Positions 29,099 to 57,171 of a stretch of DNA of 64,000 nucleotides are shown piece after piece. The translations under genes were made by a program, and so were the position numbers. Below the pieces are notes generated by a model. The model saw only the letters and a list, made by a program, of their open reading frames with translations, was not told where the DNA came from and made no database searches. Location of the stretch: assembly GCA_025766275.1 (NCBI GenBank), contig JAFKAC010000030.1, positions 124,001 to 188,000 on the forward strand, read 5' to 3'. Source of the stretch: Lactarius indigo. Lineage: Eukaryota > Basidiomycota > Agaricomycetes > Russulales > Russulaceae. Position 1 is the stretch's first letter; each line of letters starts with the position of its first letter.

Positions 29099-30195
29099 AT
29101 GCCTACCTCCCCTCTGCAACATGTCACCCAAGCAGCGCTCCTCAACTCCCTCGCACAAGACGCCCGTGCCCTCATGGCTGAGGACGACAACACCGAAGTA
29201 CCCGACACTCAGCTCACGCCATGGACACCTCTTGCACCAGCAGAGGGGCCCATCACCGCGCAAGAATGGGCCCACGTCATCACCAGATTCCCTGACCCAG
29301 CGACTACCCCCGACGACAAATCCACCGTCGTCCACGTCTTCCAAAATGGTAACGGCGAACAAGAGCCGATCGCCGCTATCCCCCCAAGCGACGACCTCAT
29401 CGGTGTTCGTGGAGTTTTCCCGAGCAACGACCAGCGTTCAAGTGCTGATGGAGTACGAGCTGGAGGGGTGGAGGAGAGTGGCAGCGGAGTGGCAGAAGGA
29501 ACAGCTCGACTCCGCAGCGGCCCGACTGAGGGAGATGCGCGAGCGGCGGCAGCGATGGCGGCAGCTGAGGCTGGCCATGACAACGACGATTACTACCCAG
29601 CGAGCCACGCCTTCCTTCGAATGAAAAGCGACCCTACTAATCCCCTCATCACACCCTGGCTCGTCTACACCGACGGGTCCCCCATGTATTGAGGATGTGT
29701 GCGCGTGCCTGGCGCCGCCGATCATCGTCCGTTCACCGCCGCCGATGACCCCGCACATGTCATTGTGCCTGAAGGGTTCAGGGCGAACCGAAGACCCCAT
29801 CACATTCGATACCCCATCACCGGACCCGATGGAGTAGAGCGGGACGCGTCGCATGTCCAGATCATCGGAGGGGCTGACCCCCTCATACTAGGAGTCATTC
29901 CAGGGTCGCCGCACGTGTACGGTAAGCCCTTCTACACCGAGCCGCACGTGTCGGCTGCCCTTCGCCCCACGTACCCTCACGAGGACCTCGTTGTCTTCGA
30001 GGCGGACCGTGTTACCGACTGTGCACTCAATTGCATCAACGACGAGTCACTCACGGCTGAGATCACGCGCTTCCACACGACCAGCTATGAGCTCAACCGA
30101 CTCCGCGCATGGGTAAGTCAACTCCGTGCCATGATCGAGTGTGCACAAGATGACAGGCGCAACTCGATCTACCGCCTGGAGCGCGCCACCGCCTT
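29099..30195 (+). pseudogene. Gypsy-B ORF3 (5' part)
   Basis: ATG at 29099 is 5' of a frame that resembles Gypsy-D ORF3: a short N-terminal helix (MPTSPLQHVTQAALLNSLA), a Pro-rich part, and a region near 30010-30070 with ESLTAEITR, matching SPRLTAEITR in Gypsy-D. A TGA at 29690-29692 breaks it. An overlapping frame (29430-29570) encodes a charged heptad-like helix (EGWRRVAAEWQKEQ), so small compensating frameshifts are possible. The cyclin element enters at 30196. The ORF ends at 43431-43433 after ALKRIADEQRDWPARDFQ. Unlike Gypsy-D there are no C-terminal zinc knuckles. Function unknown. Confidence 0.65.
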
Positions 30196-30934
30196 TGTCA
30201 TGAACTCCCCAGTCACCTTTCCTTTTGCAGTTCCTATCTGATTCATTCCCTTTATTGGCAGTTACCTTCTCAGACCTCTGCTTCCCCTTATCTGATTGTT
30301 CTAGCACCTTCTGTGCTATTCTTGTCCACCCTTCTCCTGCCTTGCTGGCATGATACCATCTTGCACAATGTTGACACCATCTTGCCAGCACATTACTCTA
30401 TCTATAGCAACCAGTAGCACTATGCGCTCAGGCGCAATCCTGTACTATATAAGGAACCCTGTAGTGCGCCTTAGCTCCTTAGCTTTGGCTTAATCAACTA
30501 TCTGCGTTGTATCTCCATTGACTCCTTGAGTGCCTCAGTCCCTTCAGCACTCAAGCCCTTGACCCTGAACCCCTGACCCTTGACCCTTCTCCCCTTTGGG
30601 TCATTCCCCTCTCAGCCTCTGTGCAGGCTTCCCCTTGACTTCGCTCTTACCCTCCTCCTGTCTTACTGGTCAGCCCAGTGACATGTGACCTTTGGACTTA
30701 GGCTGCTGAGCTCGTCCATTGCTACCGACTCAGTCACCTTAGCACAAGGGGCTGTTACAGAAGGACCTTCCCACCTTAAGCACAGGGGGATTGTCGCCGA
30801 CTCAGCTACCTCAGTGTAGGAGCTGTTACAGAAGACCTTAGGAGTCCTTCCATTCAGTGGGGATCCAACTCAGAGTCCTTTGCCTCAGGCAGGATCTGTT
30901 ACAGAACGACGCACGCCCCCGCAGAGGCGTGACA
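30196..30934 (+). repeat. Cyclin-element 5' LTR
   Basis: TGTCATGAACTCC to GGCGTGACA. TATATAAG at 30446-30453 is 35 nt before AGCTTTGGCTT at 30481. Confidence 0.93.
30446..30491 (+). promoter_or_regulatory. Cyclin-element promoter and self-primer
   Basis: TATATAAG (30446) is followed at 30481-30491 by AGCTTTGGCTT. That 11-mer is the exact reverse complement of AAGCCAAAGCT at 30936-30946, one base after the LTR. It is the same layout as in Gypsy-B, -C and -D, so the element probably uses Tf1-type self-priming. Predicted RNA start at or near 30481. Confidence 0.72.
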
Positions 30935-30935
30935 T

Positions 30936-30946
30936 AAGCCAAAGCT
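30936..30946 (+). promoter_or_regulatory. Cyclin-element self-primer-binding site
   Basis: AAGCCAAAGCT, complementary over 11 of 11 positions to 30481-30491. Confidence 0.72.
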
Positions 30947-31092
30947 ACTCAGAACCTAGCCAACGCACTGGCCAGGATTCCAGAAGAAAGACCATCGATA
31001 GTGACACTTGCTAGTGCACTAGTACCACCGACGTACACCCAGAATCGCTCACACTCCAGGAGCACCCGACAGAACTCCGAAGAAACTCCAGC

Positions 31093-33871
31093 ATGCCATC
31101 GATGCACCAGATGCAGGAGCAGGCCCAAGAAATGACTTCTGAAGAGAAGTGGAATGCCTACGAGGCACGACGAGTGGCGCGACGCCAGCTGCGACGAAGA
31201 GGGGTGACAGCAGCACCCTCCATCCCGAAACCTGACCTTGCCGACATAACTGTGGCATCCGAAGCACCAGAGAAGGACATGACGTCCCAGACGAGTCACC
31301 CTACCTGCATTGACCTAAGCAGTGTGGCTGCAGCAGAAGAAGAACCCTACCAACCAGCAACAGAAGCAGGCAGCACGGCAATGGTAGACGACATACCAGA
31401 ATGGATAGTCAAAAGACACCTTGAACGACGATTTGGCGCGATAGAAGTCGAAGCCCCTACTAGGGGAGACGCATTCGTGCCAGACAAAGCTCCAGAACTA
31501 GAAAAGACACTGATCAATTCAGAAAAACCTGAATGGGCAGTCAATAGACGCCTCACACGACGACCCGGTATAATAGAAGTCGAAGCTCCCATTGGGAGAG
31601 ACGCATTTATGCCAGAAGAGACCTCAAGAACAGGGGACACGCCATATTTAAATAACATGGCTATAGTCTCCGATGAACCCGAACGGGTAGCAGAAGGACG
31701 CCTTACACCCACACGACGATCCAGTACGATAGAAGACGAAGCTCCCATTGGGAGAAACGCCTTTGTACCGGAAAGAACCCTAGAGTCTGAATGGACAACC
31801 AGAGGATGGGCAACGATAGCCTACGCACCCCGGACCCCAACGATCGAACCAGGTGATGAAAGGAACTCACCTGGAAGCCCAGAATGGACTACCGTGTCCT
31901 ACAAAAAGACGACTGGTCATCGTACCAGTCCTATCAACAGAAGACACAAGCATGAGATGACCAGAAGTAGAGATGAACCAGAAAAGAATCGAAGTGGACG
32001 ACCTCGATGGAGAGGAATTCCAGAACCAGAGATCAGTCCCCGAGCACCCGGAATAGACACGGGAGGGGACCAAAAGACCAGAGAATCCGACGAAAAACCG
32101 ATAAGTCGAAGCCCTTGTAAGGGAGACGCACGGGAATTTGCGGAAAGAAGCAGAATGCTCCTGCAACAACTGAAAAATAACCCAGAATTCGCTGCTCTTC
32201 CCAGAAGCGAACAGCGATCACTACTTGCCGAGCTGATGGAAGATGATGCGGAGGAAAATGATCCGCCAGCTACAGCCATGACCCAACCTGAGGGGGATCA
32301 CAACGAAACCCTCGCGCTACTTGAAGAAGACGACAGATGGCAGGAAAACGATAACCTGCAAGGGAATGACACAGTAAGCGACGAACAGAGAAGTCGAAGC
32401 TCATGCATGAACCATGCATGTAAAGACGCACCTATGGAACAAAGTCGAGAACTCCTAGGAATATTGTGAAGAAATCCCGAATTTGCAGCTCTTCCCCAAA
32501 GCGAACAACGACTGGTGTTCGCCGAGCTGTTGGAAAACGAAGAAGAGTGTAAATACCTCCTCGCCCAGTCAAGAGAAGAAAGCTGTGATAACGTGAGCAA
32601 TGCCTTAACAGGAAAGGACAACGATTCCCTCATCAGGCAAAAGAACGGCATCTTCATTTTACCAGAAGAAAGTATCCACCCTGAAGGAACTGATGAGCAA
32701 CAGTGGCTGCCAGAACTCGGAAGGGATGATTGGACAGATGAACCAGAGGACGACGCGAACCCAGGAACGGCTGATTATTGGATCCAGCTAATCAGGAACC
32801 TCACGAAAGAAGAATCGAATGAATTTCTTGACGACTTACTGGAGAGAACAACCGATGGCCTGCCAAACGATGGGTTCAACGATTCTGCATGGGATGAAGC
32901 AGCCATACAGCTCCCCAACAGCGGCTTCACGCAAGAAGAAGTCATAGACCTAATTCAGAACAACAGCGAAGGAGCACGCCCAGCCAACGACTCAAGAAAT
33001 GTTCTATCGCCCCAAGTACCAACTTCAACTCGGAATAACATCTCACCAGTCCATTTGACAACATCCTCAGTCACCCCTAGTCAGGGACAGCCAACGGAAA
33101 GTACAATCACAACTGAAGAATTAAAACCTCTGAACGATCTCCAACAAGGTGGAGTAAATTCAGAAGAACAGCAAATGATCCGAGCGGCAGAATATGAAGC
33201 GCGACGACGACAGCGACGCAGGGCAGCCAAAACGACGTCCTGGGACACGGTTGAATACCAATGGAACATAGAAGCAACTGGACGGACGGTGGCACCAATA
33301 ATAAGGGAAACCGAACCGACAACGATAACAATTACATCAGTGCCCGAAACAGCGGAAAACAACCCAGGACGGGACCAGAACGACCACCAGGAGGTACCAC
33401 AAGGATGTAGTAACCCTGAGGCAACGGACACGAACGCCTTAGGACGGGAACGAACGCTCTGGGCAACAGAAGCAGTCAAAAATGACCACGCATCCCCTCG
33501 ACATACCACGGTACCACGCATGTTTCCAGAAAGCCGAAAACCCGATACCCGAAATAAACTAGAACAAGAGGACGACACCACAAAAGAGAGGATGACTCCT
33601 TTGCTCGAAAACCCCGAAACGGCGACACCTGAAAGCGCCGGGATGACCAGAAATGAAAGAGGGATGACCAGGGATGAACGGACCCTGGAAAGCAAACACC
33701 GGCCGGAAACCGATGAAAACAATCGCCCAGAAGTCCAACGACCGCAGACGAACGACGCCAGCACGCTCTGGTCCACAGACCGATCCCAGAACGCCCTAAA
33801 ATCACCAAAACAACCGGATAGAACCATAGAACGATCGATGGACAACGCAACACTGCAGCACAGATTGAGTG
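31093..33871 (+). CDS. Cyclin-element ORF, N-terminal two thirds
   Basis: ATG at 31093; an in-frame TAG at 31012 sits upstream. The protein is hydrophilic and low in complexity. An early basic helix EARRVARRQLRRRG is followed by three repeats of about 50 residues (each with an IEVEAPIGRDAFVPE-like core, 31440-31780) and two copies of NPEFAALPRSEQR (32180 and 32475). An acidic stretch and a second basic block EARRRQRRRA (33200) follow. A single TGA at 32467-32469 interrupts the frame, which is otherwise open. No Gag, zinc knuckle or enzyme motif is seen. Copia-3 enters after base 33871. The frame continues at 40864. Confidence 0.75.
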
Positions 33872-34270
33872 TGTTGCGCAGCAAAAGCCTTATAGGCCAA
33901 AGCGCAGCACGCAGGAAGGACGTTCTCACCTTTGAGTAGGTTGAGAGACTAATGAGAGAGGAGAATGTGCACAAGCAAAGTGGGTGATGTTCTGTATTCA
34001 CCTCTCTCCCCACATAGGAGGGTATTTATGCTCTATGGCCCCACCATGTCCATTTGTGGTTAAGTGATGAGTAAAGGCGTCCACAATATCGCGTTTTTAC
34101 ACACGCCTAATGTGTTTTGCCCTTCTGAGATAGTCATAAGACTTCTCCTCATCATGGGACATGATACGCCTGCTATTGTACGTATCGTGACTGCCTAATA
34201 TGGTAAATATAGTACAGTAATGTCGTAACTGCTATAGATAAGGTCCTTACGTACTTATCACGTTTCAACA
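33872..34270 (-). repeat. Copia-3 3' LTR
   Basis: 399 bp; on minus it begins TGTTGAAACGTG and ends TGCGCAACA. Compared with 40460-40858 it has about five substitutions, mostly C/T or G/A. Confidence 0.92.
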
Positions 34271-34830
34271 CTCCCCTTTGCTTAGTGCAGCTAGTAAAGC
34301 GCATCTAAGCAAAGACCTTACATTAAAGACATTTTTATAGAGGGATCGGTAATAAGCATCAACCAAGGATGCTTCGATCCTCAAATGTCAGAGGGATGTA
34401 TAGGGGATTAGGTGTGGGGTCATAGCAACATCCCTTCATAGAATGAAAGGGACGCTTAACCCCAACAATGGTCGTCTATCCTCGGTTTAGTGAGCAGTTA
34501 TACTATGCTGGTGATAGAACAGGATGTGTGAGCTTCCTGCTGGTAAGAATACCAGGGTTGTTTGACACAAAACCATAGAAGGCTTAGAGTCGGATGACTC
34601 AATAAACTTTTATGATTTGTGAGAGAACAATTCTCGCGGGACAGTCTTCTCAGAAATCATAAAAGCTTAGGGTCATAAGACTCAATAAGCTTGTATGGTT
34701 CTTTGAGAAGAACAAGTCGTTCGTGACTCATTTCTTATGTATTCCCTATTACTGGGAAAGAAGAAACGATGTACACGGAGGAGCTACAAAAGACCCTTTT
34801 ATTCTACCTCCAACCATAGCGTTGAGCTGC
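34271..34830 (-). other. Copia-3 3' untranslated region
   Basis: 560 bp between the Pol stop and the 3' LTR, ending in the purine tract GCAAAGGGGAG. No ORF on minus. Confidence 0.7.
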
Positions 34831-37167
34831 TCAAGCTCTCGTGGGCGAGTGAAATTCCAGCCCAAGCTGTTCCCTGAATTTAAGGAATTTAATGCGACCC
34901 AGATTCTTAGTAAAAAGATCTGCGGGGTTCTCAGCTCCTTCTATAAAGAATAGTTCTATCTTCTTATCTCGAATTACTTCACATATGTAGTGGTGATGCA
35001 AATCGATATGTTTAATCCGTTTTTCTTGAACCGGATTAGAAGATAGAAATATGGAGCCTTGATTATCTCCGCATAATGGAATTGGTTCTAGATTTATTCC
35101 TAGCTCAAGAAAGAGCGAACGTATCCAGACCAACTGTCTGCTTGTATCACACAGCGACATATATTCTGCTTCAGTGGATGAAAGCGCAATTGATTTTTGT
35201 GCTCTCGAATTCCAGCAGAATATTCCATTAGCCATTTTTACTAAATAGCCCGTAGTGGACTTTCTAGTGACTGGATCTGAGGCCCAATCAGAATCCGCGT
35301 ATGCTATTATACCACCATCACTTTTGCCGTCATAGACTAAAGCATAATTGGAGGTGCCAAGTAAATAGCGGCATATGTAAAGTGCACGCTTTAAGTGGTC
35401 CTCAGATGGGTTGGCAGCGAACTGCGCCATTTTGGTAACAGCATAAGCAATATCTGGTCGCGTTCCAATCATTATGTATAGGAGTGAACCTATCACTTGT
35501 TGGTATGAAGCGCGAAGTTCTGGAGATGCAGATTCCTTATTAGGAGTAGGATGATACCCTTCCGGTAATGGAGTTGGTACTGATTTGGCGTTAATCAGTT
35601 TGAAGCGCTGTAGTACTTTCTGAAGGTAGTCCTGTTGATCAATGAGGATTCTACCCTTAGATCGTAGTATGCGCATTCGAAGAAACTCCTTGGTATCTCC
35701 AAGATCTCTGCATTCCCAGATCTTCATGAAGCGCTGCTTCAGGGAATCAATATGTTTTTTATTTTTTCCGAGGAAGAGGACATCATCAACATAGACAATT
35801 ACGACAATTGTCTTTTCCTCATTTACAAAAAGACCTGAGTCTGATTGTAGACGTGTGCAGCTTAGAGTACCCATAGACTTATCTAGCGCTCTCCACCAAG
35901 CGAGAGCAGCTTGCTTAAGTCCATAAATGGCTTTTCTAAGGCGCATCACTTTGTTTTGTTGACCAGGGATTTTAAACCCTTCAGGTTGTTCCATGTAGAG
36001 TTCCTCATCGAGGTCCCCATACAGGAATGCTGTTTTGACGTCTAGTCCAGAGATGTGCCAATCTTTAAGCGCTGCAAGCGCAAGCATCATCCGGACAGTC
36101 TCAAACCGTACCACAGGCGAGAATATTTCGTCATAATCAATGCCTTCAACCTGAGAAAAACCTTTGGCAACTAGCCTGGCTTTCTTTCGGCCATCTGACT
36201 TTAAGTCAAATACCCATCGATTCTTGATAACCTTTCTGCCTTTCAGCGGGTTAACAAGTTCATAGACTTTGCGATTGCGAAGGGAAGCTAGTTCCTCTTT
36301 GCACGCATTACGCCACTCCTCCTGAGAGTCGCTTGGCATCTTTAGAATGTCCCGATAAGTCCATTCTCGAATATTAGAGGTATCAGGTGCGTCTAGATCT
36401 GTTGGTGAAACTGCTTTGGCTAGCAGAAGATCTAGAAATTTGACTCCCCCTTCCTGAGCAAGGCGGGTGAGCAATTGCTGCTCTACTTCATCGTCCGAGA
36501 GGTGCGGATTATCACCCGAAGCACGAGGAGGACCAGACTCGGGTTGCTCAGGAAAATCTCCTGGTACCGTCTGATCTTGACGTGAACGCAACCGAGAGCT
36601 ACTCGGCTGGTCACCAGTCAACTGTCGCCATGTGCGAGTCCGCTCAATGTCACGAATAATCGCAGTAGGAGGCCTATCTCCATAGACATTATCTGGACGA
36701 GAAGTTTGTTTCCTTGTACGCGCCGACCTCCTAGGTTGGCTAGGACCTGGTACGGGTTGCGGCGGTAAAGGCGGAGGTAGCTGCGATCCACTTCCTCCAG
36801 TAGACGTACTAGGAGGAGGTGCCACAGGGGCTTGTGGAGCGCTCCTCACTTTAGGAGGCTCAGGTGGAGGGTCGTCATCAACACCAGGAGTGGTATCGTC
36901 ATGTAACAGCTCATCATCAGAAGCTGTATCATCTAACTGAGTAATACCTTTGGGTTTACTCTGAACACTGTCCGATGGACATTTAGGAAACAATGCTTCA
37001 TCAAAGAGGGCTTTGTCTGAGTAAAATAAGGTATTTGGAGTACGCATGAAGACATCAGCCTTCATTCCAGATCCCCTACCAAGGTAGATCATAAGTTCGC
37101 TTTTAGGGGAAAGTTTATTCACCCGGCGAGCTTCAGGGATATGGACATAAGCACCTGATCCAAAGAC
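34831..37167 (-). pseudogene. pol: Copia-3 RT and RNase H
   Basis: Same frame as 37168-40083 after one TGA. It follows integrase and has a Pro/Ser linker (QAPVAPPPSTSTGG), RT starting near 36370, VKTAFLYGDLDEELYMEQP near 36025, catalytic VYVDDVLF near 35790, RNase H with YADSDWASD near 35300, STEAEYMSLCD near 35160 and LCGDNQGSIF near 35070. It ends ...EFHSPTRA. Apart from the single stop it is complete, so it was inactivated recently. Confidence 0.9.
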
Positions 37168-40083
37168 TCAAAGATGAGCAATGTCAGGTTTCTCATTGTA
37201 TAATAGTCCATAGGGAGTCTGCCATTGAAGGCGACTGATTGGAGTTCTATTATAACAATGTGTAGCATGTAAAACTGCAAATTCCCACCAACTCTGAGGT
37301 AAACAAGCATCAAGGTGCATGGCCTGAGCTTTGTCCATGACTGTACGCATAAAGCGCTCAGTGCGGCCATTCTGCTGTGGGGTATGTGGCGCGGACTGTA
37401 GCACTGTAATGCCAGCATCCTTTAGCTGCTTCAGAAAAGCATCCAATTTGTATTCACCGCCAGCATCAGACATCCACTCTTTTATGGTAGCGTCAAATTG
37501 ATTTTTAATCAGCGCAAGCCACTGCTTTAAAGCAGTAATAGCAGAGGCTTTATCCCGTAAGAGAGTGATCCAAGCAAAAGAAGTATAATCGTCGAAGAAG
37601 ACGATAAAATACTTGTACTTGTGATATGATGGTATAGGGAAGCTTTTTAGATCAGAATGAATCCGACTAAAAGAGGCTTTAGCCCTAGTCTCGGAAGGAG
37701 GATGAGATGCTGCAGGCATTTTGCCTTGCGCACATCCTGGGCATAGTTTATCAGAGGTCGGAATTATAATCCCATCAGGGAAACCCTTAGTGTTCTCCTT
37801 AGATCGTCTTAGAACCTCTTTAGATGGATGTCCGAGGCGACGATGCATAAGGTCATAATCTACATTATGCAATGCAGATATGTTGGCGTAATCTAACTCA
37901 GTTAGATTAGATATAGAGGCATCTAGCCAAAATAGTGATTGCCCGTGAATAAGGGGTTTACATTGGACAATTATTTTATTTTTTCTTAGCAAGTCTACAT
38001 GCTGCGAATTCCCCAAAACGCGCAATCCTTGCTGTAGGAATACTCCCATTGATAGTAACCGTGTGCTCATAGAAGATATGTGAAAGACTGGATAAACTCG
38101 TGTAGTTACAAGTTTGTCTGCGATATAATGTTCTAGCAAGACAGTACCAACTCCTTCAACATATATCATGTGAGCCGCGGTTTTGACAGGTATTCTGTCA
38201 GACTTGGCTAGCAACTTATACTCAATAAAATCACTAAGACTATTGGTAAAGTGCGCTGAGGCTCCTGAGTCAAGAAGCCACATATTTTTAGTACGCTTCA
38301 AACATTCTGCGCATTGACTGAAGTACTCATTGTGCTCACACTCAAGAAAATCGAGAAGAGCACTAGTGTAATTGTACATTTCAGGCAACTTCTTTACATG
38401 TGACTCCAGTACGTTACAGTTAGATCTGCCACCCCTTAGATTTTTTGGGGGCTGGACTAATTCTGTACCGTGATCAGCACGTAATAGGCAAAATGAAGGA
38501 GTAACGTACTCTTCTTCATCGGAACCCCAATCCAGGATCTCATCTGGACCGGTTAGAAAATGTTCGGGGGTTATAGAACGCGATCCTGACGGGGATATCA
38601 AAGTACCGAAGTCAGGGTGCGTAGGAAGCCCATGGTCATATAAATATTGCTGATTCCTAGTCCATGCGGCAAGAATTAGCTCCGCAGAAGGAATTTTTGG
38701 AATAGAACCAGCGCCAGTAAATGAAGGTTGTTCCCACATTTTTGTTATCTCTTCAGCCTCAATTGCCTCCGGATCAACATATTCCGGTGTCGGAGCTCGG
38801 TTTTCTTTATCTGAGTCAACATCCGATATAGTTAGATCACTCAAGTCTAATTGTAGAGCGTTTGAAGACTCACTACAATAGGCGGCAATCTCAGAGTCGT
38901 CTAGACTCTCGATGTCGACAATGGGTCGAGCGCCAGCAGGGGGTGCTCGCGTCATGTCAATGTCGAAATCGGAGTCATATTCTTCGTCAATAAATTTATC
39001 GATCCGAGGGTGCATCTGGGCGTCCACATCGGCGAAACGCTGCTCAAGCGTCTTTGCGGTCTGAACTGTAGCTGGTACATTCAGCCGCTCTGCGAGCGTC
39101 ATAGCGGTATTAACAGAGGGAAAGAAGCCAGGGGTCCTCTGAGGCGAAGAGGATTCGACTTCTGTGCGAGTAGAGACGCCAGATGACCCAATATGGATCA
39201 CCTTGTGAGAGGTGGGTGGAGATAATGCAGCTACAGAGGCTATGTGGGAATGCTGGGGAGCGCCGCCACGCGCTTTGCCTTTACCTTTTCCTTTGCCTCG
39301 CCCAGATCCTCGTCCTCCGCGCTGCCGGTTAGGCTGCTGCTGAGAAGACGGGCCGGGGGCATTGGAAGAGGAAGACTGTTGCTGCTGCTGACCACCCTGC
39401 TTCGAAAAGCGAGGGTTTTCGCGCTTGTGTTTAACGGCAGAAAGTTTCTGCGCGTTGTGTGCTCCCTTATGCTGTCCGCGATTAGTTTCAGTTTCAAACT
39501 GGCCAATAACTATGCCAGAGACTGAAGCAAGTTTGAGATCAGCAGTTGCAACACCGCTGCAGATAATGGGGATAAGGTTTTCCCATTTCTGAGGAAGCGC
39601 GGACATGGCTATCAAAGCCTGAAGGGGAGGAGATATCGCAAGCGTTGTTTGATTAGGAGCAGTGCCAATAGTAACGGCACCAAGTCGAGAGAAGGCGGCA
39701 GCCATTTTCTCGAAAGTTGCTACTGGGTTTTGGTTAGGATTGAAGCGAATAGAAACTGCTTCTTTAAAATCCTTGTAAATGCGTGGCAAAGAGACCGCTC
39801 CATAGCGATCTTGTACAGCATCCCAGAGCAATTTGGCAGAGGTGCTGGTGACAGCTTGCTGGATAGCAGGAGAAAGGCGAAGAGTAAGATTACCCCTTGC
39901 CATTTCATCACTGCGACGCCAAGCAGCTTGAATTTCAGCGGTGGCAGTAGTGTCGAGAGGGATAGAACCATCGACATAACCCCAGAGACCTTGGGACATG
40001 AAGAAGGCTTGCATGGCATTGGACCAAAGGGTCCAGTTAGAGCCATCGAAGACGGAGACAAGAGTAGTTAATTGAGATGACAT
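37168..40083 (-). CDS. gag-pol: Copia-3 Gag, protease, integrase
   Basis: ATG at 40083. UBN2-type Gag (FDGSNWTLWSNAMQAF) comes first. Instead of a CCHC knuckle there is an RG-rich basic stretch (RQRGGRGSGRGKGKGKGK, near 39320-39280). The protease has MWLLDSGASAHF near 38280, integrase HHCC has HRRLGHPSKE and CPGCAQGK, and the core has HSDLKSFP, SDAGGEY and QQNGRTER. It ends IAHL then TGA at 37168-37170, where the next codons VFGSGAYVHIP continue the frame. That is CGA to TGA by the pattern seen elsewhere. Confidence 0.9.
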   Translation of the reverse strand: MSSQLTTLVSVFDGSNWTLWSNAMQAFFMSQGLWGYVDGSIPLDTTATAEIQAAWRRSDEMARGNLTLRLSPAIQQAVTSTSAKLLWDAVQDRYGAVSLPRIYKDFKEAVSIRFNPNQNPVATFEKMAAAFSRLGAVTIGTAPNQTTLAISPPLQALIAMSALPQKWENLIPIICSGVATADLKLASVSGIVIGQFETETNRGQHKGAHNAQKLSAVKHKRENPRFSKQGGQQQQQSSSSNAPGPSSQQQPNRQRGGRGSGRGKGKGKGKARGGAPQHSHIASVAALSPPTSHKVIHIGSSGVSTRTEVESSSPQRTPGFFPSVNTAMTLAERLNVPATVQTAKTLEQRFADVDAQMHPRIDKFIDEEYDSDFDIDMTRAPPAGARPIVDIESLDDSEIAAYCSESSNALQLDLSDLTISDVDSDKENRAPTPEYVDPEAIEAEEITKMWEQPSFTGAGSIPKIPSAELILAAWTRNQQYLYDHGLPTHPDFGTLISPSGSRSITPEHFLTGPDEILDWGSDEEEYVTPSFCLLRADHGTELVQPPKNLRGGRSNCNVLESHVKKLPEMYNYTSALLDFLECEHNEYFSQCAECLKRTKNMWLLDSGASAHFTNSLSDFIEYKLLAKSDRIPVKTAAHMIYVEGVGTVLLEHYIADKLVTTRVYPVFHISSMSTRLLSMGVFLQQGLRVLGNSQHVDLLRKNKIIVQCKPLIHGQSLFWLDASISNLTELDYANISALHNVDYDLMHRRLGHPSKEVLRRSKENTKGFPDGIIIPTSDKLCPGCAQGKMPAASHPPSETRAKASFSRIHSDLKSFPIPSYHKYKYFIVFFDDYTSFAWITLLRDKASAITALKQWLALIKNQFDATIKEWMSDAGGEYKLDAFLKQLKDAGITVLQSAPHTPQQNGRTERFMRTVMDKAQAMHLDACLPQSWWEFAVLHATHCYNRTPISRLQWQTPYGLLYNEKPDIAHL

Positions 40084-40447
40084 TGTTGGTAAATCTGTTG
40101 GCTTTATAGTACGTCAGTATTTAGAATTTTTCATCATAATACTGAGTGAGATAATAAAACCAGCATTAATCCCTTCGGCTACAGAACGTATTCTGTAGCA
40201 GACATTGGTCTTTGCAGACTACCAATTGTCTATGCCAAAAGAACTGCTCGACCATGTCAACGTTAGACAGTGGGCCAAGTCTATGTACTCCTCTAGAGTA
40301 CAATACTGGGTCTGTTATGAACCAGGGTGCCTCCCGGGGTCTGCTCGCTGTTTTCTCGTTACCACTCTGTTCATAGATACAGAGGGTAGGAGTGCGATAC
40401 CACCAGGTGCAACTTCGTCTAGAAGTGCAGCGGCAAGCCCTGTAACA
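40084..40447 (-). other. Copia-3 leader
   Basis: About 364 bp between the primer site and the Gag ATG. No recognised feature. Confidence 0.6.
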
Positions 40448-40459
40448 GGGCCCATAACC
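40448..40459 (-). promoter_or_regulatory. Copia-3 primer-binding site (half-tRNA iMet type)
   Basis: On minus it reads GGTTATGGGCCC directly after the LTR end TGCGCAACA, identical to the sites of Copia-1 and Copia-2. Confidence 0.8.
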
Positions 40460-40858
40460 TGTTGCGCAGCAAAAGCCTTATAGGCCAAAGCGCAGCACGC
40501 AGGAAGGACGTTCTCACCTTTGAGTAGGTTGAGAGACTAATGAGAGAGGAGAATGTGCACAAGCAAAGTGGGTGATGTTCTGTATTCGCCTCTCTCCCCA
40601 CATAGGAGGGTATTTATGCTCTATGGCCCCACCATGTCCATTTGCGGTTAAGTGATGAGTAAAGGCATCCACAATATCGCGTTTTTACACACGCCTAATG
40701 TGTTTTGCCCTTCTGAGATAGTCATAAGACTTCTCCTCATCATGGGACATGATATGCCCGCTATTGTACGTATCGTGACTGCCTAATATGGTAAATATAG
40801 TACAGTAATGTCGTAACTGCTATAGATAAGGTCCTTACGTACTTATCACGTTTCAACA
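40460..40858 (-). repeat. Copia-3 5' LTR
   Basis: 399 bp, flanked outside by TSD GAGTG (40859-40863) and inside by the primer site. Confidence 0.93.
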
Positions 40859-40863
40859 GAGTG

Positions 40864-42599
40864 GTACGAAGCACGAAAGCCTCCACAACACACCGGCCCG
40901 GATCGACCCTGTGAACCGAAGTACTCAGGTACCAAACGACTCTGGAATCAACGCATCCTGCTCGCACCATGCGCTGAATATATTTGACTGCCCGCAATTG
41001 CATCCTTCACGCCCCGAATTGGCCACTGTACCTGGAACAGTCTATGCCATCCCTGGCACGATTTCACTGGCCCTAACCGATGAACCGACCTGCTGTGTTG
41101 CCGTGGAAGGCAACCACTTTGGGAAGGGGGTAATCACCTCACCCTGCTTCGTTTTCAACCCCTTGCCTTCCCAAAACAACCCTCTAGATCGAAAATACCT
41201 CTTGACTGAAACCCTAGCACTTCAAAATCGATGCACAAGATATACGGAACACCCAGAACTGGTCCTACCACGCCTCAGCCACAACCCGGTCGAACCCATT
41301 GTATCAACCACCCTAGATGACACCTGCCCAAGCAAGGACACCACGAAGATTGGAACATCGAAACAGCTGATGATACTACCTAAAAACAACCCTGAGCAAC
41401 CCAACACAGCGATACCTGACCAATCCAGAGACGCCTCCACGCCAGCTGACATTCAAGTCCCACTTCCCAGATGTTCCGGTCACGTTGGAGACCCTGGGAT
41501 AGCTTGTGCAGGGCACCTGACCCCCCCTTACCCTTCGAAACACCACGACGAAGTCCCCACAAGAAGATCGATGGCCAGCACAACAATATGGGAGCTACAG
41601 GATGCTAATGATGCCGACGCGTCGACTGCCAGCACTAACACCACCTTTGGGGACTTCTCCCTTACGCCCAGCCCACAAACAGAAGGACTGCGACCTGTGA
41701 CCCCCTGTACTAACTGGATAAAAGCACCCTGCAGTACAGAAAGGACCAGCAACACACCAGACAACGCCCTTCTCTACCCTTGCCTCCTAACAATGAACTA
41801 CGTCACTCCCATCTACTCCCAGACCCTTGCTGGACTAGCTGACCAGAATCCCTTACACTCAGCCATTGAGTGTCTGGCTACCACCACAATTGCAGTTATT
41901 GATGCTGCTATTGACCGCTCTCCCCCTATCCCCACTGCGATTAATGTGCGACGACCAGAAGAACCTGCCTTTATCAGGTGGACCACTGGGATTGTGATCA
42001 GGTCCCAGATCAGAACCCCCATCCTTCTAACCGCCCTCACCTACTTGAATAGGGTTAAGCCCTATATCTGCACCAATACCCTTAAATGGGCCGAGATACG
42101 ACTGCTCTTAGGAGCCCTCATCATTGCTGACAAATACATGGATGACAATGCCCTCAGTAACGCACAGTGGGCCATAGTTACAAAAAGGTTTACCAGGTGG
42201 CAGGTTGGGCAGATGGAACGAGAGTTCCTGAGTGTCCTTAACTGGAAACTCGGAGTATCCCAGGAAGATCTTCTGATGTGGCATGATGCCACCATCATTC
42301 CCCTTACCCCTATCTTGATGGCACCCCCTCTACCTCAGCTTGCCATCAAATCACACCCGTTCAAGAAGAAGCTGGCGGCTCCCCCCAAACTTAGTCACCC
42401 CCCATTTACCCTCAAAACCAATCCAATCCGATGGCAGTGGAGGAAGTCCCTAAAACTTCCTGAGAAGAAGTCTCAAATCAAATGGCGACGACACCAGAAA
42501 GCCAGGGTTTATAGCCCTGAAGAAGACGCCACCTTTAGGGCTCTACTCCAAATCCTGGAAGAGTCCAGGTCTAGCCTCACTAACCTGGCTACCACATGA
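40864..42599 (+). CDS. Cyclin-element ORF, C-terminal third with cyclin box
   Basis: Continues codon by codon from 33871 (the split codon is completed by 40864-40865). A Pro/Thr-rich segment leads to a cyclin box at about 41955-42290: TPILLTALTYLNRVKPY, RLLLGALIIADKYMDDNALS and MEREFLSVLNWKLGVSQEDLL. This is the Pho80/Pcl (Pho85-type) cyclin pattern, including the conserved K in ADKY and E in EREF that contact the kinase. A basic tail (HPFKKKLAAPPK, IKWRRHQKAR) may act in nuclear import. TGA stop at 42597-42599, 38 bp before the 3' LTR. Whether it binds a host CDK is unknown. It could also be a fossil transduced host gene. Confidence 0.8.
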
Positions 42600-42637
42600 C
42601 TTGGCGACGTGGAATTCACCCCTTAGAAAGGGGGTAA

Positions 42638-43376
42638 TGTCATGAACTCCCCAGTCACCTTTCCTTTTGCAGTTCCTATCTGATTCATTCCCTTTATTGG
42701 CAGTTACCTTCTCAGACCTCTGCTTCCCCTTATCTGATTGTTCTAGCACCTTCTGTGCTATTCTTGTCCACCCTTCTCCTGCCTTGCTGGCATGATACCA
42801 TCTTGCACAATGTTGACACCATCTTGCCAGCACATTACTCTATCTATAGCAACCAGTAGCACTATGCGCTCAGGCGCAATCCTGTACTATATAAGGAACC
42901 CTGTAGTGCGCCTTAGCTCCTTAGCTTTGGCTTAATCAACTATCTGCGTTGTATCTCCATTGACTCCTTGAGTGCCTCAGTCCCTTCAGCACTCAAGCCC
43001 TTGACCCTGAACCCCTGACCCTTGACCCTTCTCCCCTTTGGGTCATTCCCCTCTCAGCCTCTGTGCAGGCTTCCCCTTGACTTCGCTCTTACCCTCCTCC
43101 TGTCTTACTGGTCAGCCCAGTGACACGTGACCTTTGGACTTAGGCTGCTGAGCTCGTCCATTGCTACCGACTCAGTCACCTTAGCACAAGGGGCTGTTAC
43201 AGAAGGACCTTCCCACCTTAAGCACAGGGGGATTGTCGCCGACTCAGCTACCTCAGTGTAGGAGCTGTTACAGAAGACCTTAGGAGTCCTTCCATTCAGT
43301 GGGGATCCAACTCAGAGTCCTTTGCCTCAGGCAGGATCTGTTACAGAACGACGCACGCCCCCGCAGAGGCGTGACA
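42638..43376 (+). repeat. Cyclin-element 3' LTR
   Basis: 739 bp, preceded by AGAAAGGGGGTAA and followed by TSD GCCTT. One difference from the 5' LTR by eye. Confidence 0.93.
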
Positions 43377-43381
43377 GCCTT

Positions 43382-45273: not shown

Positions 45274-46013
45274 TGTCACGAACCACCTACTACTTTTCCC
45301 TTCTTGTCCTTATCTGATCCATCTCCTTTCCTGACTGTTACCTTTCTTGGACCTATGCTTCCCCTTTATCCGATCGTTCTAGCACCTTCTGTGCTATTCT
45401 CGTCCACCCTTCTTCTGCCTTGCTGGCATGACACCATCTTGCACGATATTAACACCATCTTGCCAGCACATTATTCTATCTATAGCAACCAGTAGCACTA
45501 TGCGCTCAGGCGCAATCCTGTACTATATAAGGAACCCTGTAGTGCGCCTTAGCTCCTTAGCTTTGGCTTAATCAATCATCTGCGTTGTATCTCCATTGAC
45601 TCCTTGAGTGCTTCAGTCCCTTCATCACTCAAGTTCTTGACCCTGAACCCTTACCCTTGACCCTTATCCCCTTTGGGCCATTCCCCTCTCAGCCTCTGTG
45701 CAGGCTTCCCCTTGACTTCGCTCTCATCCTCTTTCTGTCTTACTGGTCAGCCCAGTGACACGTGACCTTTGGACTTAGGCCTCCGCGCTCGTCCATTGCT
45801 ACAGACTCAGTCGCCTTAGCACAAGGGGCTGTTACAGAAGGACCTTCCCACCTTAGCACAGGGGGATTGCCACAGACTCAGCTACCTTGGTACAGGGGCT
45901 GTTACAGAGGACCTTAGGAGTCGTTGCACACAGTGCCGATCCGACTTGGCTATCGACTGCCACGTGACAGGAAGCCATTACAGAACAACGCACGCCCCCA
46001 CAGAGGCGTGACA
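45274..46013 (+). repeat. Solo LTR of the cyclin-element family in Gypsy-C Gag
   Basis: 740 bp, TGTCACGAACC to GAGGCGTGACA, with TSD CGCGG (45269-45273 and 46014-46018). It is divergent from the complete element but retains TATATAAG and AGCTTTGGCTT. Excision restores the Gag frame (LKRGVMPVTMDDW). Confidence 0.92.
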
Positions 46014-47319: not shown

Positions 47320-48316
47320 TGACGCCTAATAACTAACTTGCTTTATCAGATCTACTTGTGTCATCTTGCTCTCTCAGCCGACCACAACTTTTTTTGTCGT
47401 CACCTACACTTTCAGTGAGCATCCTCTATCCTCTTTCGACACACCCTCCTTTTCTTGTCCACCATGACTTCAGTCATGTGCCATTTTGGCTAGCCTCCTA
47501 AGGAGGTTCTCATGAGAGGTTTTACATAAACCTCAAATTCCTCTGTGCGCACTACTATATCTTCATTACCCAGTTTTCGTCTGGAAGTGCTTTAATAGGC
47601 CAATAGGGGAAGACCCTTGCGGCTATAGGCCTCTCTAATGGTTGGGTGATACTCGGTTAATACCTGGGTCACTTTAAGGGGTGTGAAGGCCTGGTTAATA
47701 GTCAAACCCAGAAGTCCTTCCCTCTGACACAACTAGGAGACGCTACTTAGTACTATACACAGTAGCTATGACTAGACCTCTGCTAGGAGAAGTATTCGCT
47801 CCCTTTGTGCAGGATTCGCTGCATAGCAAGTATCACTAGTCTAGTTACTTAGTACCAAGACCCTTAATGGTCTGTTCTAGAGACTCCACAGACGGAAGAT
47901 TCAGTTGTTATGGGAGTTGATCCCTATCACTGTCTCTTGAACTCGCTGTTGGCTCCTCTCTAGGGTACTACCCTTTACTATAGATCCTTAGTAGCCCCAG
48001 CATCAAGGCTGTAAGGCTGAGGGATACAGAGACTTAGTAGTCCTTCGCCGGACCAAAAGCTCCTATTCCGTCGAAGCCAACAAAGCTGTTGCATGACTAT
48101 TACCCATAGTAACATTTGGGCTTTGTGGGTCTTAGTATAAGGCAGCCATCAGTACAATGATTCCACTATATAATTATACCCAAGTCGCACACACTTGAGG
48201 CATGACACCATATGTGTTATGGAGTATAGCGCTCCTATGGCTGGACCATTACTTTCTCTACCAAGATCTGAGCTGGTTCTGACTGCTCCTCGGAACCAGA
48301 TTTACAAACATCTCAA
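47320..48316 (+). other. Copia-2 leader
   Basis: About 1 kb between the primer site and the Gag ATG, unusually long for Copia. It has no sizeable ORF and several short upstream ATGs, so efficient translation would need an intron, re-initiation or internal entry. I see no convincing intron pair. Confidence 0.6.
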
Positions 48317-51300
48317 ATGTCTTTCCACCTCGTCTTCCCTCCGTCCGTCACCCTCGCCAAGTTGGATGGCACCAACTGGCAGACTTGGTCTGCCACCTTT
48401 ACCTCCCTCATGCTGATGAATGGGTGCAGCAGGCACCTTACACACGGTGCTCCTGCTTCAGTGCCCCAACATCCCCCTCTCGCAGCAGGTGCTGTGGGGC
48501 CCACTGGCCCTACAGATGAGGGACTCGCCATCCTTGCCCTCTGGGCAAAACAAGAGGAGGTCATCACTGGCCTCTTATTTTTATCAGTGACAACGGAGGT
48601 CCTATCTGGTATTCACTCCTCTCACATCTTCCCAACTGTCCATGACAAGTTTGTGGAGTTGGAGAACCTCTATGGTCAGGTTGGCTCTATGGCCACCTTC
48701 AATATTTGGGTGGGCTTGGCAAACACCAAGCTTCAGGAAGGTAGCCCCTTCCTGCCTCAGCTCCAAAAAATGCTGGATCTGAGGAACACCCTGGTGGAAC
48801 AAGGGATGCCCGTCTCGGACATGCAAATGTCCTTTATTCTTCTAGACGCGCTCCCCCCATCCTACAGCACCATAGCTGGCACCATCCTGGCCTCTGGCCC
48901 CCCCTCTAACCTCCAACCTCAGGACCTCATCAACAGGTTCATCAACGAGGAATCTCGTCTCGCCGGTCCCGTGGCGTCCTACAACAAGGTCGCCCCCGTT
49001 AAGAAATCTTCGGCCCCTCACGCTCATGAGGCGCGGCCATCGGGCAGCTCTGTGTCTTCGGACATAATCTGCCATTACTGCAAAAAGCCTGGCCATAAAA
49101 AGCCAGAATGTTACAAACTCAAACGGGACCAGGAGAATGCTAAGAAGGGGAAGGCAGGACAGCGGGCAAAGGCCGCCCAGAATACCACAGTAGAAGTGCC
49201 GGACTCACTTCCGGCAAACAGGTTAAATAGCATACCTGTACCAAAGAGCCGACTATTTACTATAGTCAATGGCTCTGGCAAAATAGAGGAGGTACATGAA
49301 GTACCTCAGGTTTCCCTTTACACGATGGGTACACACAGTACCCAGATTGCATCAAAATGGATGATGGACAGTGGGGCATCAGCACACTTTACCCCTCACA
49401 TAGAAGACTACGACACCTACACTCCTCACAAAGGTGTTGAAGTACTTCTAGGAGATAACTCCTTGCTAAGGAGTGTTGGTACTGGAACGGTAACAATCCA
49501 TACCAACTTTGGGTATGACCTAAAAATCTCCAATGTGCTGCACCTACCTAATACGCATTCGCGTATACTGTCCACCCCTGCCCTAACAGCTAAGGGGGCC
49601 ATAGTAAGTTTTGATGCCACTACCTTTGCTATAAGGTATGATGGGAAAACCATTGCGGAAGGACACAAGGCTTCAGGCCTATACTGGCTTGATGGGCACC
49701 ATAAAGTAAATGCCCAAGCAACTGCATCTGCTAGCCTTGATGTCTGGCATCGGCGCATGGGACATATGTCCAAAGAAGCGCTCCAAAGATATGCTCCGAA
49801 GTCCGTAAAAGGACTTAACATAGATGAATCCCCTGAGGAAGAAGGTCCCTGTCATGGGTGTGAACTTGGCAAGTCCACCCGCAAACCTTTTCCTCCTTCC
49901 CAGAAGCGTGCACAAGAATCCCTTGAACTTGTGCACAGTGACCTTGTTGGCCCACTACAGAGTAACTCTATCCAGGGCAACAAATACTTTGCCACCTTCA
50001 TAGATGACTTCTCAAAAGCTGCAGTTGTCATCCCTATGAAGTCCAAAGACGAGTTTACGGGTGCCTTCCTACACTACAAGGCATGGGCTGAAAAACAACA
50101 AAATAAGCCCATTAAAACCCTGCACTCAGATCGTGGTGGCGAGTATGTCAACAATGTCCTTAAAGACATTCTTCTGGAGGAAGGGATTGAGCATATGCTT
50201 ACGATGCCTTATTCCCCACAACAGAACGGGAGAGCCGAGCGGTTTAACCGCACTATCATGGAAAAAGGCACCAGCATGCTTCATCATGCAGGTCTTAGCC
50301 TTGGCTTTTGGGAACAAGCAGTTCAAACTGCAGTGCACATCTATAATCGCACTCCCACCCGTTCTAATGAGTGGAAAACTCCGCTGGAGCTCTGGGATGG
50401 TACAGTTCCAGATGTCTCTTACTTTAGAGTATTCGGCTGCAAAGCCTACTATCATGTACCAGAACACAACCGGCGCAAATTAGATCCTAAATCAAAGGAA
50501 GCCGTGTTTGTGGGCTATGAACCCAATTCAAAGGGTTACAAACTCTGGGATAGACATAGCCGGTGCTTCGTCTCTTCACGAGATGTTACATTTGACGAAG
50601 CTACCTTCCCATCCCTGAGTGACCTGACTAGTCACTCCAACCAACCAATCACTTCTCCCGTGTCCGGCGAACCTGCTAAAGGGGCTGCTGTTGCCGGTGA
50701 GATATTCTTTGTAGTGCCTAGTCAGCCTACGCCAGCTGTTGCCCCTGCGGCACCTCAGACACCAGTCTTTGTCTTACCACCTGTCCAGGTGCCTGCAGTA
50801 CCAATACAACAGCCTAGCACACCCCCCAACACTTCTCCAAATCCCGCCGACCAGACTATCTATCACACTCCTCCATCCCAAGCACCTGCACCTACCACCC
50901 CAAGGCGCCCTCGCACTCGCTCGCAAGGGAGACCGCCTGTAGTAACTGCCCCAATCCCTGCCCCTAACTTCAATAGGGACATCTCTCCTCCTAGGGAAAC
51001 ACCTAGATCTCCGAGGAATGGGCAAGTTACTTCACCCCCTCGCCCAAGGCGTGGGACCAGGGTACGATTCACAAATCCTCGCTACTACACAGAGGAGAAC
51101 GATGAATTTGTGCCTGGGAGTAGCAGACTGGGTATGATGGACTTGCTGAACGCTGCCGAGGTTCCTGGCTACAAGGACCCGCAGACCTTTAAGCAAGCTA
51201 TGGAATCTGACCAAGCTGTCGATTGGCTTGAAGCATGCCAGTATGAACTGGACGCTCTCGACAAGCTTGATGTCTGGAGGCTAGAACCCCTTCCTGAAGG

Positions 51301-52720
51301 AAGGAAGGTGGTTAAGTGTAAATGGGTGTTTAAAAAGAAAGCGGATGGACGCTTTCGTGCTAGGCTAGTGGCAAAAGGGTTCACCCAACTAGAGGGGGTG
51401 GACTTTGACGAAACTTTCTCCCCAGTTGCCCGCTTTGAGTCCTTGCGACTCCTTCTCGCGTTGGCTACGCTTGAAGACTGGCATATTCACCAGATGGATG
51501 TCAAGTCGGCATTCCTTCATGGGGAACTGGAGGAAGAAATTTACATGGAGCAACCAGTCGGTTTCGTCACAGCTGGCTCCGAGCACCTTGTGTGCCGGCT
51601 ACAGAAGGCCCTCTATGGCCTGAAACAAGCTTCCCGCGCATGGAATGTGCAGTTCCATGGGGTCTTAGTCGACCTAGGCTTCACGCGGACGTACTCTGAT
51701 GCAGGAGTATACGTGTATCATCTTCAAGAGGGGGGTGATACACTTTTCGTGATCTTATATGTAGATGACATCACTATACTCGGAAGTTCCTTATCAAAGA
51801 TCAATGATCTGAAGGCTTCTCTATCTAGTCGATATGAGATGACCGATCTGGGAGAAATCCAGTCTTATCTCGGTGTTAACATCACCAGAGATCGTGCTAA
51901 TCGCACTATGGAAATCAACCAGTCAGACTACATCCGCGATGTGGTGGAACGATTTGGAATGTCTGATTCCAATCCGGTATATACCCCTCTTCCCTCTGGC
52001 GCCGAGGCACACTTGATCAAGTACACAGATCAGGCCTCTACTTCTGAGATTAAGAAGTATCAACAGATAATCGGGTCTCTGCTATATGCGCAGATTGGAA
52101 GCAGACCTGATATTTCCTTCGCTGTTGCGCGCCTTAGCCAATTTGCTTCCAACCCCTCACCTCAGCATTTACGCCTAGCCAAGTATGTCCTAGCCTATCT
52201 TAATAGCACCAAGGACTACTCATTACGCTATGCTGGAGGGAATGGCAATAGTGGTGAAGGCCTTCATGGCTACTGCGACGCTTCCTGGGGAGATCAGGAA
52301 GAAAAGCACTCCACCTCAGGTTTTGTCTACCTGCTTGCAAATGGAGCCATCTCTTGGTGTACCAGAAAGCAAAAGACAATTGCGCAGTCTACCACTGAGG
52401 CAGAATACATGAGCCTCTCAGACGCCTCCAATCAGGCTCAGTGGTATGCCACCTTCCTTGGAGAACTGGGGTATGAGGTATCCTCCCCCATTCCTCTGCA
52501 CTGTGACAATAAGGGTGCTGTGGACTTAGCTCTCAACCCTGTCACTGGGAGACGCTCTAAACACATCCTGATCAAACACCATGTAGTCAGGGAGTACGTA
52601 GAGAACAAGGTCATACACCTGATACGTACACCCACAGGGGAAATGGTTGCAGATGGACTTACTAAGTCACTGCCCAGAGAACCCTTTGAAAAAATGGTTG
52701 TTGATCTAGGAATGGTGTAA
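48317..52720 (+). CDS. gag-pol: Copia-2 Gag-Pol polyprotein
   Basis: 1467 residues, no stop or frameshift. Gag starts with LAKLDGTNWQTWSATFTSLM. Zinc knuckle CHYCKKPGHKKPEC at about 252-265. Protease MMDSGASAHFT at about 349. Integrase HHCC at about 478-520 (HRRMGHMSK, CHGCELGK). The integrase core Asp residues are in HSDLVGPL (about 541) and SDRGGEY (about 604) and the Glu in NGRAERF (about 637). A Pro-rich linker spans about 790-900. RT runs from about 960, with VKSAFLHGELEEEIYMEQP and catalytic YVDD at about 1148. RNase H has YCDASWGD (about 1318), TEAEYMSLSDA (about 1361) and CDNKGAVDLA (about 1395). All catalytic residues are present. A single frame means Gag and Pol are made as one product. 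Confidence 0.95.
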   Translation: MSFHLVFPPSVTLAKLDGTNWQTWSATFTSLMLMNGCSRHLTHGAPASVPQHPPLAAGAVGPTGPTDEGLAILALWAKQEEVITGLLFLSVTTEVLSGIHSSHIFPTVHDKFVELENLYGQVGSMATFNIWVGLANTKLQEGSPFLPQLQKMLDLRNTLVEQGMPVSDMQMSFILLDALPPSYSTIAGTILASGPPSNLQPQDLINRFINEESRLAGPVASYNKVAPVKKSSAPHAHEARPSGSSVSSDIICHYCKKPGHKKPECYKLKRDQENAKKGKAGQRAKAAQNTTVEVPDSLPANRLNSIPVPKSRLFTIVNGSGKIEEVHEVPQVSLYTMGTHSTQIASKWMMDSGASAHFTPHIEDYDTYTPHKGVEVLLGDNSLLRSVGTGTVTIHTNFGYDLKISNVLHLPNTHSRILSTPALTAKGAIVSFDATTFAIRYDGKTIAEGHKASGLYWLDGHHKVNAQATASASLDVWHRRMGHMSKEALQRYAPKSVKGLNIDESPEEEGPCHGCELGKSTRKPFPPSQKRAQESLELVHSDLVGPLQSNSIQGNKYFATFIDDFSKAAVVIPMKSKDEFTGAFLHYKAWAEKQQNKPIKTLHSDRGGEYVNNVLKDILLEEGIEHMLTMPYSPQQNGRAERFNRTIMEKGTSMLHHAGLSLGFWEQAVQTAVHIYNRTPTRSNEWKTPLELWDGTVPDVSYFRVFGCKAYYHVPEHNRRKLDPKSKEAVFVGYEPNSKGYKLWDRHSRCFVSSRDVTFDEATFPSLSDLTSHSNQPITSPVSGEPAKGAAVAGEIFFVVPSQPTPAVAPAAPQTPVFVLPPVQVPAVPIQQPSTPPNTSPNPADQTIYHTPPSQAPAPTTPRRPRTRSQGRPPVVTAPIPAPNFNRDISPPRETPRSPRNGQVTSPPRPRRGTRVRFTNPRYYTEENDEFVPGSSRLGMMDLLNAAEVPGYKDPQTFKQAMESDQAVDWLEACQYELDALDKLDVWRLEPLPEGRKVVKCKWVFKKKADGRFRARLVAKGFTQLEGVDFDETFSPVARFESLRLLLALATLEDWHIHQMDVKSAFLHGELEEEIYMEQPVGFVTAGSEHLVCRLQKALYGLKQASRAWNVQFHGVLVDLGFTRTYSDAGVYVYHLQEGGDTLFVILYVDDITILGSSLSKINDLKASLSSRYEMTDLGEIQSYLGVNITRDRANRTMEINQSDYIRDVVERFGMSDSNPVYTPLPSGAEAHLIKYTDQASTSEIKKYQQIIGSLLYAQIGSRPDISFAVARLSQFASNPSPQHLRLAKYVLAYLNSTKDYSLRYAGGNGNSGEGLHGYCDASWGDQEEKHSTSGFVYLLANGAISWCTRKQKTIAQSTTEAEYMSLSDASNQAQWYATFLGELGYEVSSPIPLHCDNKGAVDLALNPVTGRRSKHILIKHHVVREYVENKVIHLIRTPTGEMVADGLTKSLPREPFEKMVVDLGMV

Positions 52721-57153: not shown

Positions 57154-57155
57154 TT

Positions 57156-57166
57156 AAGTCTAGTCT
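57156..57166 (+). promoter_or_regulatory. Gypsy-D self-primer-binding site
   Basis: AAGTCTAGTCT, complementary over 11 positions to 56923-56933. Confidence 0.75.
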
Positions 57167-57171
57167 CCACA

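Follow-up and report, generated by a model that had tools for sequence, protein, structure and literature searches.

A cyclin-bearing family of LTR retrotransposons in Lactarius indigo and its likely chromovirus helper

The element and its cyclin

We analysed a 64,000-nucleotide stretch of the Lactarius indigo genome (positions 124,001–188,000 of contig JAFKAC010000030.1, G000:C216:124001-188000 in our numbering, in a 90.3-Mb assembly of 291 contigs; hereafter the window). It contains a long terminal repeat (LTR) retrotransposon whose interrupted open reading frame (ORF) encodes a cyclin box as its only domain above Pfam cut-off. As an earlier note on this DNA had described, the element lies between two 739-bp LTRs, which differ by a single mismatch (position 489), and is flanked by a clean 5-bp target-site duplication (TSD). 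LTR ends of the TG..CA type, the TSD, a primer-binding site (PBS) and a polypurine tract identify it as an LTR retrotransposon, with the following parts:

30191–30195 (left) and 43377–43381 (right): TSD GCCTT, flanking the element
30196–30934, forward strand: 5' LTR, 739 bp, TGTCATGA...GCGTGACA
LTR offset about 250, forward strand: TATA box TATATAAG inside the 5' LTR
30480–30492 (LTR position 285), forward strand: putative self-primer TAGCTTTGGCTTA, about 34 nt after the start of the TATA box
30935–30947, forward strand: PBS TAAGCCAAAGCTA, directly adjoining the 5' LTR
31093–32466, forward strand: N-terminal part of the ORF, from ATG to a premature TGA at 32467–32469
32470–33871, forward strand: middle part of the ORF, running to the nested insertion
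33872–40858, reverse strand: nested Ty1/copia element with gag, integrase and reverse transcriptase (RT), 399-bp LTRs and TSD GAGTG, foreign to the cyclin element
40866–42599, forward strand: C-terminal part of the ORF, final codon TGA
41970–42251, forward strand: cyclin box (Cyclin_N / PF08613) by Pfam, nearest in PDB to Cyclin-Y
42625–42637, forward strand: polypurine-rich tract AGAAAGGGGGTAA, preceding the 3' LTR
42638–43376, forward strand: 3' LTR, 739 bp

A profile search, chosen beforehand as the test that could overturn the cyclin assignment, placed the window copy above the Pfam cut-offs, with 37.0 bits for Cyclin_N (cut-off 23; E 3e-9) and 22.8 bits for Cyclin PF08613 (cut-off 21). 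In three other copies of the family with an open frame, Cyclin_N was above cut-off throughout, and PF08613 was at the cut-off in one (21.0) and just below it in two (20.1 and 19.5). Cyclin-Y was the sole match at E up to 0.1 in a search of PDB sequences (E 5.5e-8), and the lysine and glutamate characteristic of the box align at the positions proposed in the earlier note.

Pfam found no gag or pol domain in the window copy (all three ORF pieces) or in the three open copies, which bears out the claim that no retroviral enzyme is encoded; the element lacks the gag-pol of an autonomous Ty3/gypsy or Ty1/copia element. When nine segments of the ORF were compared with gag and pol profiles of the candidate helper described below, the only significant match was to the linker between its protease (PR) and RT, which a stretch of about 50 residues resembles (46% by blastp, E 1.4e-4; profile E 6e-5); the next best match had P 0.035. 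Look-alikes of an RT YMDD box and of an H2C2 motif in the cyclin ORF were weak (E 0.84 and above) and were rejected.

Copies, constraint and origin of the cyclin

Genome protein searches, whose counts are lower bounds and include two haplotypes, returned at least 50 matches to a 484-residue N-terminal piece and at least 56 to a 577-residue C-terminal piece. We interpret the latter as 22 places where an element spans the cyclin box wholly or in part, plus additional fragments and one host gene. An LTR query gave at least 43 matches in the 40 candidates that were scored out of 318. A stop-to-stop open frame was present in three of the 18 other regions examined (L030, 1549 codons; L032, 1545; L031, 1486), the last ~25 residues of the L030 frame lying in a different frame from the other copies; in the remaining 15 the ORF is split by stops, truncated or interrupted. 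The single ORF of about 1500 codons announced in the earlier note thus exists in these three regions and not in the window copy, where an in-frame TGA and the nested antisense copia element break it.

At seven distinct loci the ORF is bounded by an LTR on each side: the window, L029, L030, L031, L032 (5' LTR partly matched), L037=L040 and L038=L039 (5' LTR of L039 split). L037 and L040 have the same flanks (98.7% and 99.8%), and L038 and L039 are probably allelic since both have the TSD TTGAG. Exact TSDs were found at five loci (GCCTT in the window, AATGT at L029, GTCTA at L030, GCTCA at L031 and TTGAG at L038/L039); the flanks of L037/L040 do not match. LTR pairs, measured at all of these loci except L032 and 725–744 bp long, differ at one to four sites: one in the window, three at L029, three at L030, two in 725 at L031, one at L037 and at L040 (the latter plus three gap columns), and four at L038. 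The search for other full-length copies thus yielded a family of which neither the window copy nor any of the three open copies carries gag-pol by Pfam.

Two further family LTRs lie near by in the window, as had been noted: one at 45274–46013 (TSD CGCGG) and another in two pieces, 3847–4317 and 15193–15476, separated by about 10.9 kb containing copia pieces. Farther along the contig, at G000:C216:227785-232947, two same-strand family LTRs stand about 3.7 kb apart, with no match to either ORF part there. No relatives outside this genome emerged when protein searches were made with the C-terminal region from an open copy and from the window piece. An alignment search, limited in scoring to the 7998 candidates with the most words in common, matched three proteins, all from Lactarius indigo. 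One scan of viral contigs, with bacterial, archaeal and metagenome contigs outside it, found no relative.

The cyclin is under purifying selection, stronger than on the rest of the ORF. We estimated the ratio of nonsynonymous to synonymous substitution rates (dN/dS), a comparison suggested in the earlier note, by the Nei-Gojobori method, which is approximate and made noisier here by high dS (0.44–1.41). Among the three open copies, the cyclin plus tail gave 0.098, 0.092 and 0.150, against 0.315–0.618 for the other three segments. The window piece compared with five others (the three open copies and two further) gave 0.094–0.124 for the cyclin part, one value being based on 61 codons only, and 0.407–0.570 for the part before it; the N-terminal and middle window pieces gave 0.343–0.476 against other copies. 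Across these eight comparisons the cyclin end thus ranges over 0.09–0.15 and the rest of the ORF over 0.31–0.62. The copies compared differ by 20–34% in nucleotide sequence, and three nevertheless keep the full frame.

The only matches outside the elements in the genome search lay at L051 (C112:2661127-2661791), which, in a comparison that took in six host loci, aligns in two stretches (40% and 37%; joint E 1e-24). These are separated by a 56-nt GTGAGC..CCGTAG intron located exactly between ASK and YLND, where the element reads an uninterrupted IADKYMDD. For one intron of the closest host gene found in this genome, then, the sequence between the LTRs lacks the intron, as expected of a Bs1-like transduction, and capture via spliced RNA is the simplest account of this absence. 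We suggest that the cyclin probably entered the element long ago by capture of a spliced host mRNA, the donor of which may have been a cyclin other than L051.

Signals shared with a chromovirus

The PBS TAAGCCAAAGCTA is the exact 13-nt complement of TAGCTTTGGCTTA at LTR position 285, and its first 10 nt are identical in 11 of the 12 copies compared, the window copy included (the exception, L035, has TAGG). Complementarity between the PBS and a 5' LTR segment able to act as self-primer is described for Tj1 and Tf1 (PMC4600332). The cyclin element has the same arrangement relative to the 5' part of its own transcript, the start of which is predicted, and is probably self-priming in the manner of Tf1.

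The LTR end plus PBS, taken as the pattern GTGACATAAGCCAAAG, occurs at 47 exact sites in the genome and at five with one mismatch (control, 3). We assign 18 of the 47 to the window copy or to other cyclin copies that were examined. Four sites (L041, L042, L044 and L046) are nested within cyclin copies and followed by gag/pol-type ORFs. Another four, examined among the sites outside known cyclin copies, gave this picture: the same gag-like ORF starts in three of them (L047, L049 and L050, the last with another gypsy element soon after the ORF start), and the fourth, L048, shows no gag-like ORF and contains a 42-residue remnant of the cyclin element's N-terminus. In domain scans covering part of L047 and of L049, both scored well above cut-off for RT, RNase H and the integrase zinc finger. 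The gag score was at the cut-off in L047 and narrowly missed it in L049, and the integrase core and CCHC knuckle fell below. A protease was seen in L049, and a Tf2-1-type SH3 and a chromodomain at the end of L047. The gag (50–1798) and pol (1756–4950) of L049 occupy different frames and overlap, which suggests a frameshift between the two. The helper LTR at L041 (459 nt compared, two terminal bases left off) is colinear with the cyclin LTR, with 94% over the first 16 nt, 73% in the TATA/self-primer region and 89% over the last 101 columns (E 4e-34).

A hairpin of the form GUC-GAAG-[stem]-A-GAC is also shared. In the ORF of the window copy, GTCGAAG-[stem-loop]-AGACGC is found at four strict sites and a weaker one:

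31447–31473, forward strand: strict hairpin, site 1
31579–31605, 32105–32130 and 32393–32430, forward strand: further strict hairpins, in the ORF
about 31735–31760, forward strand: weaker hairpin, in the ORF

By the strict pattern, at least one hairpin (maximum 4) was found in the cyclin element of 13 of the 18 regions L029–L046 and none in the other five. Six of seven helper copies examined carry one (L050 has none). Genome-wide, GTCGAAGC..GACGCA gave 113 matches against 17 for the reversed pattern, the matches listed including a few duplicated sites and some chance matches without a stem.

The hairpin stems covary. The first test covered 12 unique 13-nt inserts, all of which paired at four positions, against 9.4 in shuffled sets (p about 0.001). 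In 16 unique 27-nt forms, 96.9% of cells were paired against 92.8% after shuffling, with nine double changes against 3.5 (0 of 500 shuffles as high for either) and three pairs with double changes against 1.2 (14 of 500 as high). The 23 unique 38-nt forms gave 94.2% against 87.1% paired and 27 against 9.5 double changes (again 0 of 500), and five against 3.1 pairs with double changes (4 of 500); since the forms are related to one another, these shuffle counts are not probabilities. The outer GUC/GAC pairs are nearly constant and add little. Sliding the partners lowers pairing throughout, and in single-sequence folding the short forms were mildly better than shuffles (z -1.3 and -0.9) and the long forms better (-1.9 and -3.2). 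Neither of the two loci searched against Rfam, L030 and L047, had a match at E up to 1.

The cyclin ORF reads the motif in two different frames (..VEAP.. and ..SRSP..), and both occur within one open frame of a third family (L052), an indication that the nucleic acid rather than the peptide is constrained. In the helper, the hairpin sits within the PR-RT linker; the sequence encoded around the motif is the one part of the cyclin ORF with significant similarity to gag-pol. LTR ends, primer site and covarying hairpin are common to both elements, and this Ty3/gypsy chromovirus is the likely helper of the cyclin element.

The third family (L052/L053, G000:C219:385100-388400, minus strand) has the same hairpin, three in tandem, and long open frames in both pieces. 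The downstream frame is a degenerate RT/RNase H that aligns to helper L049 at 25% (E 1.7e-23) and has no YxDD box in the aligned stretch. As to its surroundings, the window element apparently sits inside a gypsy remnant, amid other gypsy and copia elements. These include a copia gag-pol frame of 1482 aa that looks complete (48272–52720) and a gypsy chromovirus gag plus pol with a chromodomain (57133–62363), in which a scan with the strict hairpin pattern found none. At 926–3571, minus strand, is an 881-aa frame with DUF6535 (E 2.5e-51).

A role for the cyclin and its alternatives

We consider it fairly likely that these copies form a helper-dependent LTR element family whose cyclin aids the element's own spread, probably via a host kinase related to Pho85 and to cyclin-dependent kinases (CDK) 14–16. 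The sole gene would encode a protein of about 1500 residues, in which a long N-terminal part with no recognisable domain is followed at the C-terminus by a cyclin nearest Cyclin-Y. The chromovirus would supply gag, protease, RT and integrase in trans, and the cyclin would stay intact because it is helpful to the spread of the element. Pho85/CDK14-16-type kinases are partners of Pcl and Y cyclins. A host kinase of this type would be the most likely binding partner, directed either to the particle of the element or helper or to the cell-cycle state. An extension of this reading, which we hold tentatively and find less probable than its core, is a society of retroelements coded by the hairpin: it would mark the RNAs of the helper (one site), the cyclin element (up to four strict sites) and the third family for packaging by the helper, with the cyclin turning a Pho85-like kinase to the benefit of the particle or element.

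Other accounts of a cyclin between LTRs have to be weighed. A host cyclin mRNA might have been caught in a non-autonomous LTR element and be hitch-hiking without a role in its spread; host gene sequence in an LTR element has a precedent in maize Bs1 (PMC5408686), and many copies of the present family carry stops or are truncated. A mere passenger would be expected to drift towards a dN/dS of 1, however, and the value of about 0.1 at the cyclin end, against 0.3–0.6 for the rest, disfavours this account, which we judge unlikely. Such strong constraint would also fit a cyclin kept for the host, the copies being domesticated genes and the element a relic. The near-identical LTR pairs and the exact TSDs are instead as expected of moving elements, and the copies, 20–34% apart and three of them with a full frame, form no single conserved locus that we could see within this genome; we give this explanation slightly less credence than the preceding one. 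That the ORF is a wrecked gag-pol whose remnant resembles a cyclin by chance seems very improbable: the match to the helper PR-RT linker and the degenerate RT/RNase H of the third family speak for it, but the cyclin match exceeds the Pfam cut-offs, the nearest PDB sequence is itself a cyclin, and, the linker aside, none of the nine ORF segments significantly matched the helper gag/pol profiles.

Several observations weigh against the reading we favour. The lysine of the box is not invariant: among five aligned copies (alignment A1) the glutamate is kept in all five, and the lysine is K in three and R in two. An AlphaFold model from five close copies was unusable (pLDDT, the predicted local distance difference test score, 42.5), and a Foldseek search with it, which gave no match at E up to 0.001, is meaningless; no claim made here rests on this model. 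In neither hairpin set did the number of further pair types exceed that in shuffles (497 and 309 of 500 as high). Within the searches made, protein relatives were found solely in Lactarius indigo, and the closest host cyclin is just 37–40% identical, so that it is no more than a candidate donor. The support for spread, helper use and kinase binding comes from sequence.

Two patterns of sequence divergence also count against this reading. In all 15 pairs formed by the window, L029, L030, L031, L032 and L037, the LTRs of different copies diverge by 7–15% against 20–39% at four-fold sites of the ORF, and are thus about two to five times less diverged. Simple common descent leaves this gap unexplained, so that homogenisation, recombination with other LTRs or constraint on the LTRs must be invoked. 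The nested copia LTRs differ at 5 of 399 positions against 1 of 739 in the outer element, which reverses the expectation from nesting order, albeit on small numbers; either the composite moved whole or the LTRs were converted. The nearest siblings of the window copy show 73–75% protein identity over the whole 577-residue piece, and 85–88% for shorter pieces of the cyclin end. The earlier conclusion that the window copy moved recently is backed by its LTR pair and qualified by the copia LTRs and by our seeing no sibling close to identity, so that the LTRs may have been converted or the composite may have moved as a unit.

Parallels exist for individual features of the reading we favour, that of a helper-dependent element served by its own cyclin. 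LARD (large retrotransposon derivative) and TRIM (terminal-repeat retrotransposon in miniature) elements are non-autonomous LTR elements that rely on the enzymes of other elements; we know of none with a conserved long ORF of its own. Transduced genes in LTR elements are usually decaying fragments, and maize Bs1, which is of low copy number, holds gene fragments. Like Bs1 (PMC5408686), the cyclin element is an LTR element with host-gene sequence; unlike it, it keeps one cyclin box in many copies under purifying selection. With Tf1/Tj1 of Schizosaccharomyces it shares a PBS complementary to a segment of its own 5' LTR (PMC4600332), and helper L047 shares the terminal SH3 and chromodomain. It differs from them in having no recognisable gag, PR, RT or integrase, and its self-priming is here a prediction from sequence. 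A cyclin is also borne by walleye dermal sarcoma virus, in which Orf A is a retroviral cyclin that binds cdk8 (PMC3185748); this is a complete fish retrovirus that carries the cyclin as an accessory gene, with less than 20% identity to metazoan cyclins. Both are LTR retroelements with a cyclin, but in the Lactarius element the cyclin is the only recognisable domain and is nearest Cyclin-Y. We found no cyclin-bearing fungal LTR retrotransposon in the literature searched, outside which lay most subscription papers and Repbase, in keeping with the earlier note, whose author knew of no such family. The known kind to which the element belongs is the helper-dependent LTR element with a transduced gene; what is unusual is the type of gene, its constraint and its being the sole recognisable domain.

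In this family a regulatory protein occupies the place where the enzymes should be, and the constraint on the ORF is strongest on the cyclin. A cyclin family of this kind makes it testable, in a fungus, whether retrotransposons manipulate the host cell cycle. To our knowledge, how helpers recognise non-autonomous LTR elements is poorly known outside retroviruses, and the hairpin in common with the chromovirus is a concrete candidate for such recognition. If the reading of a hairpin-coded society were true, the cyclin element would be the first family of retrotransposons to have a cyclin as its defining feature, and covariation would have revealed a signal for packaging in trans.

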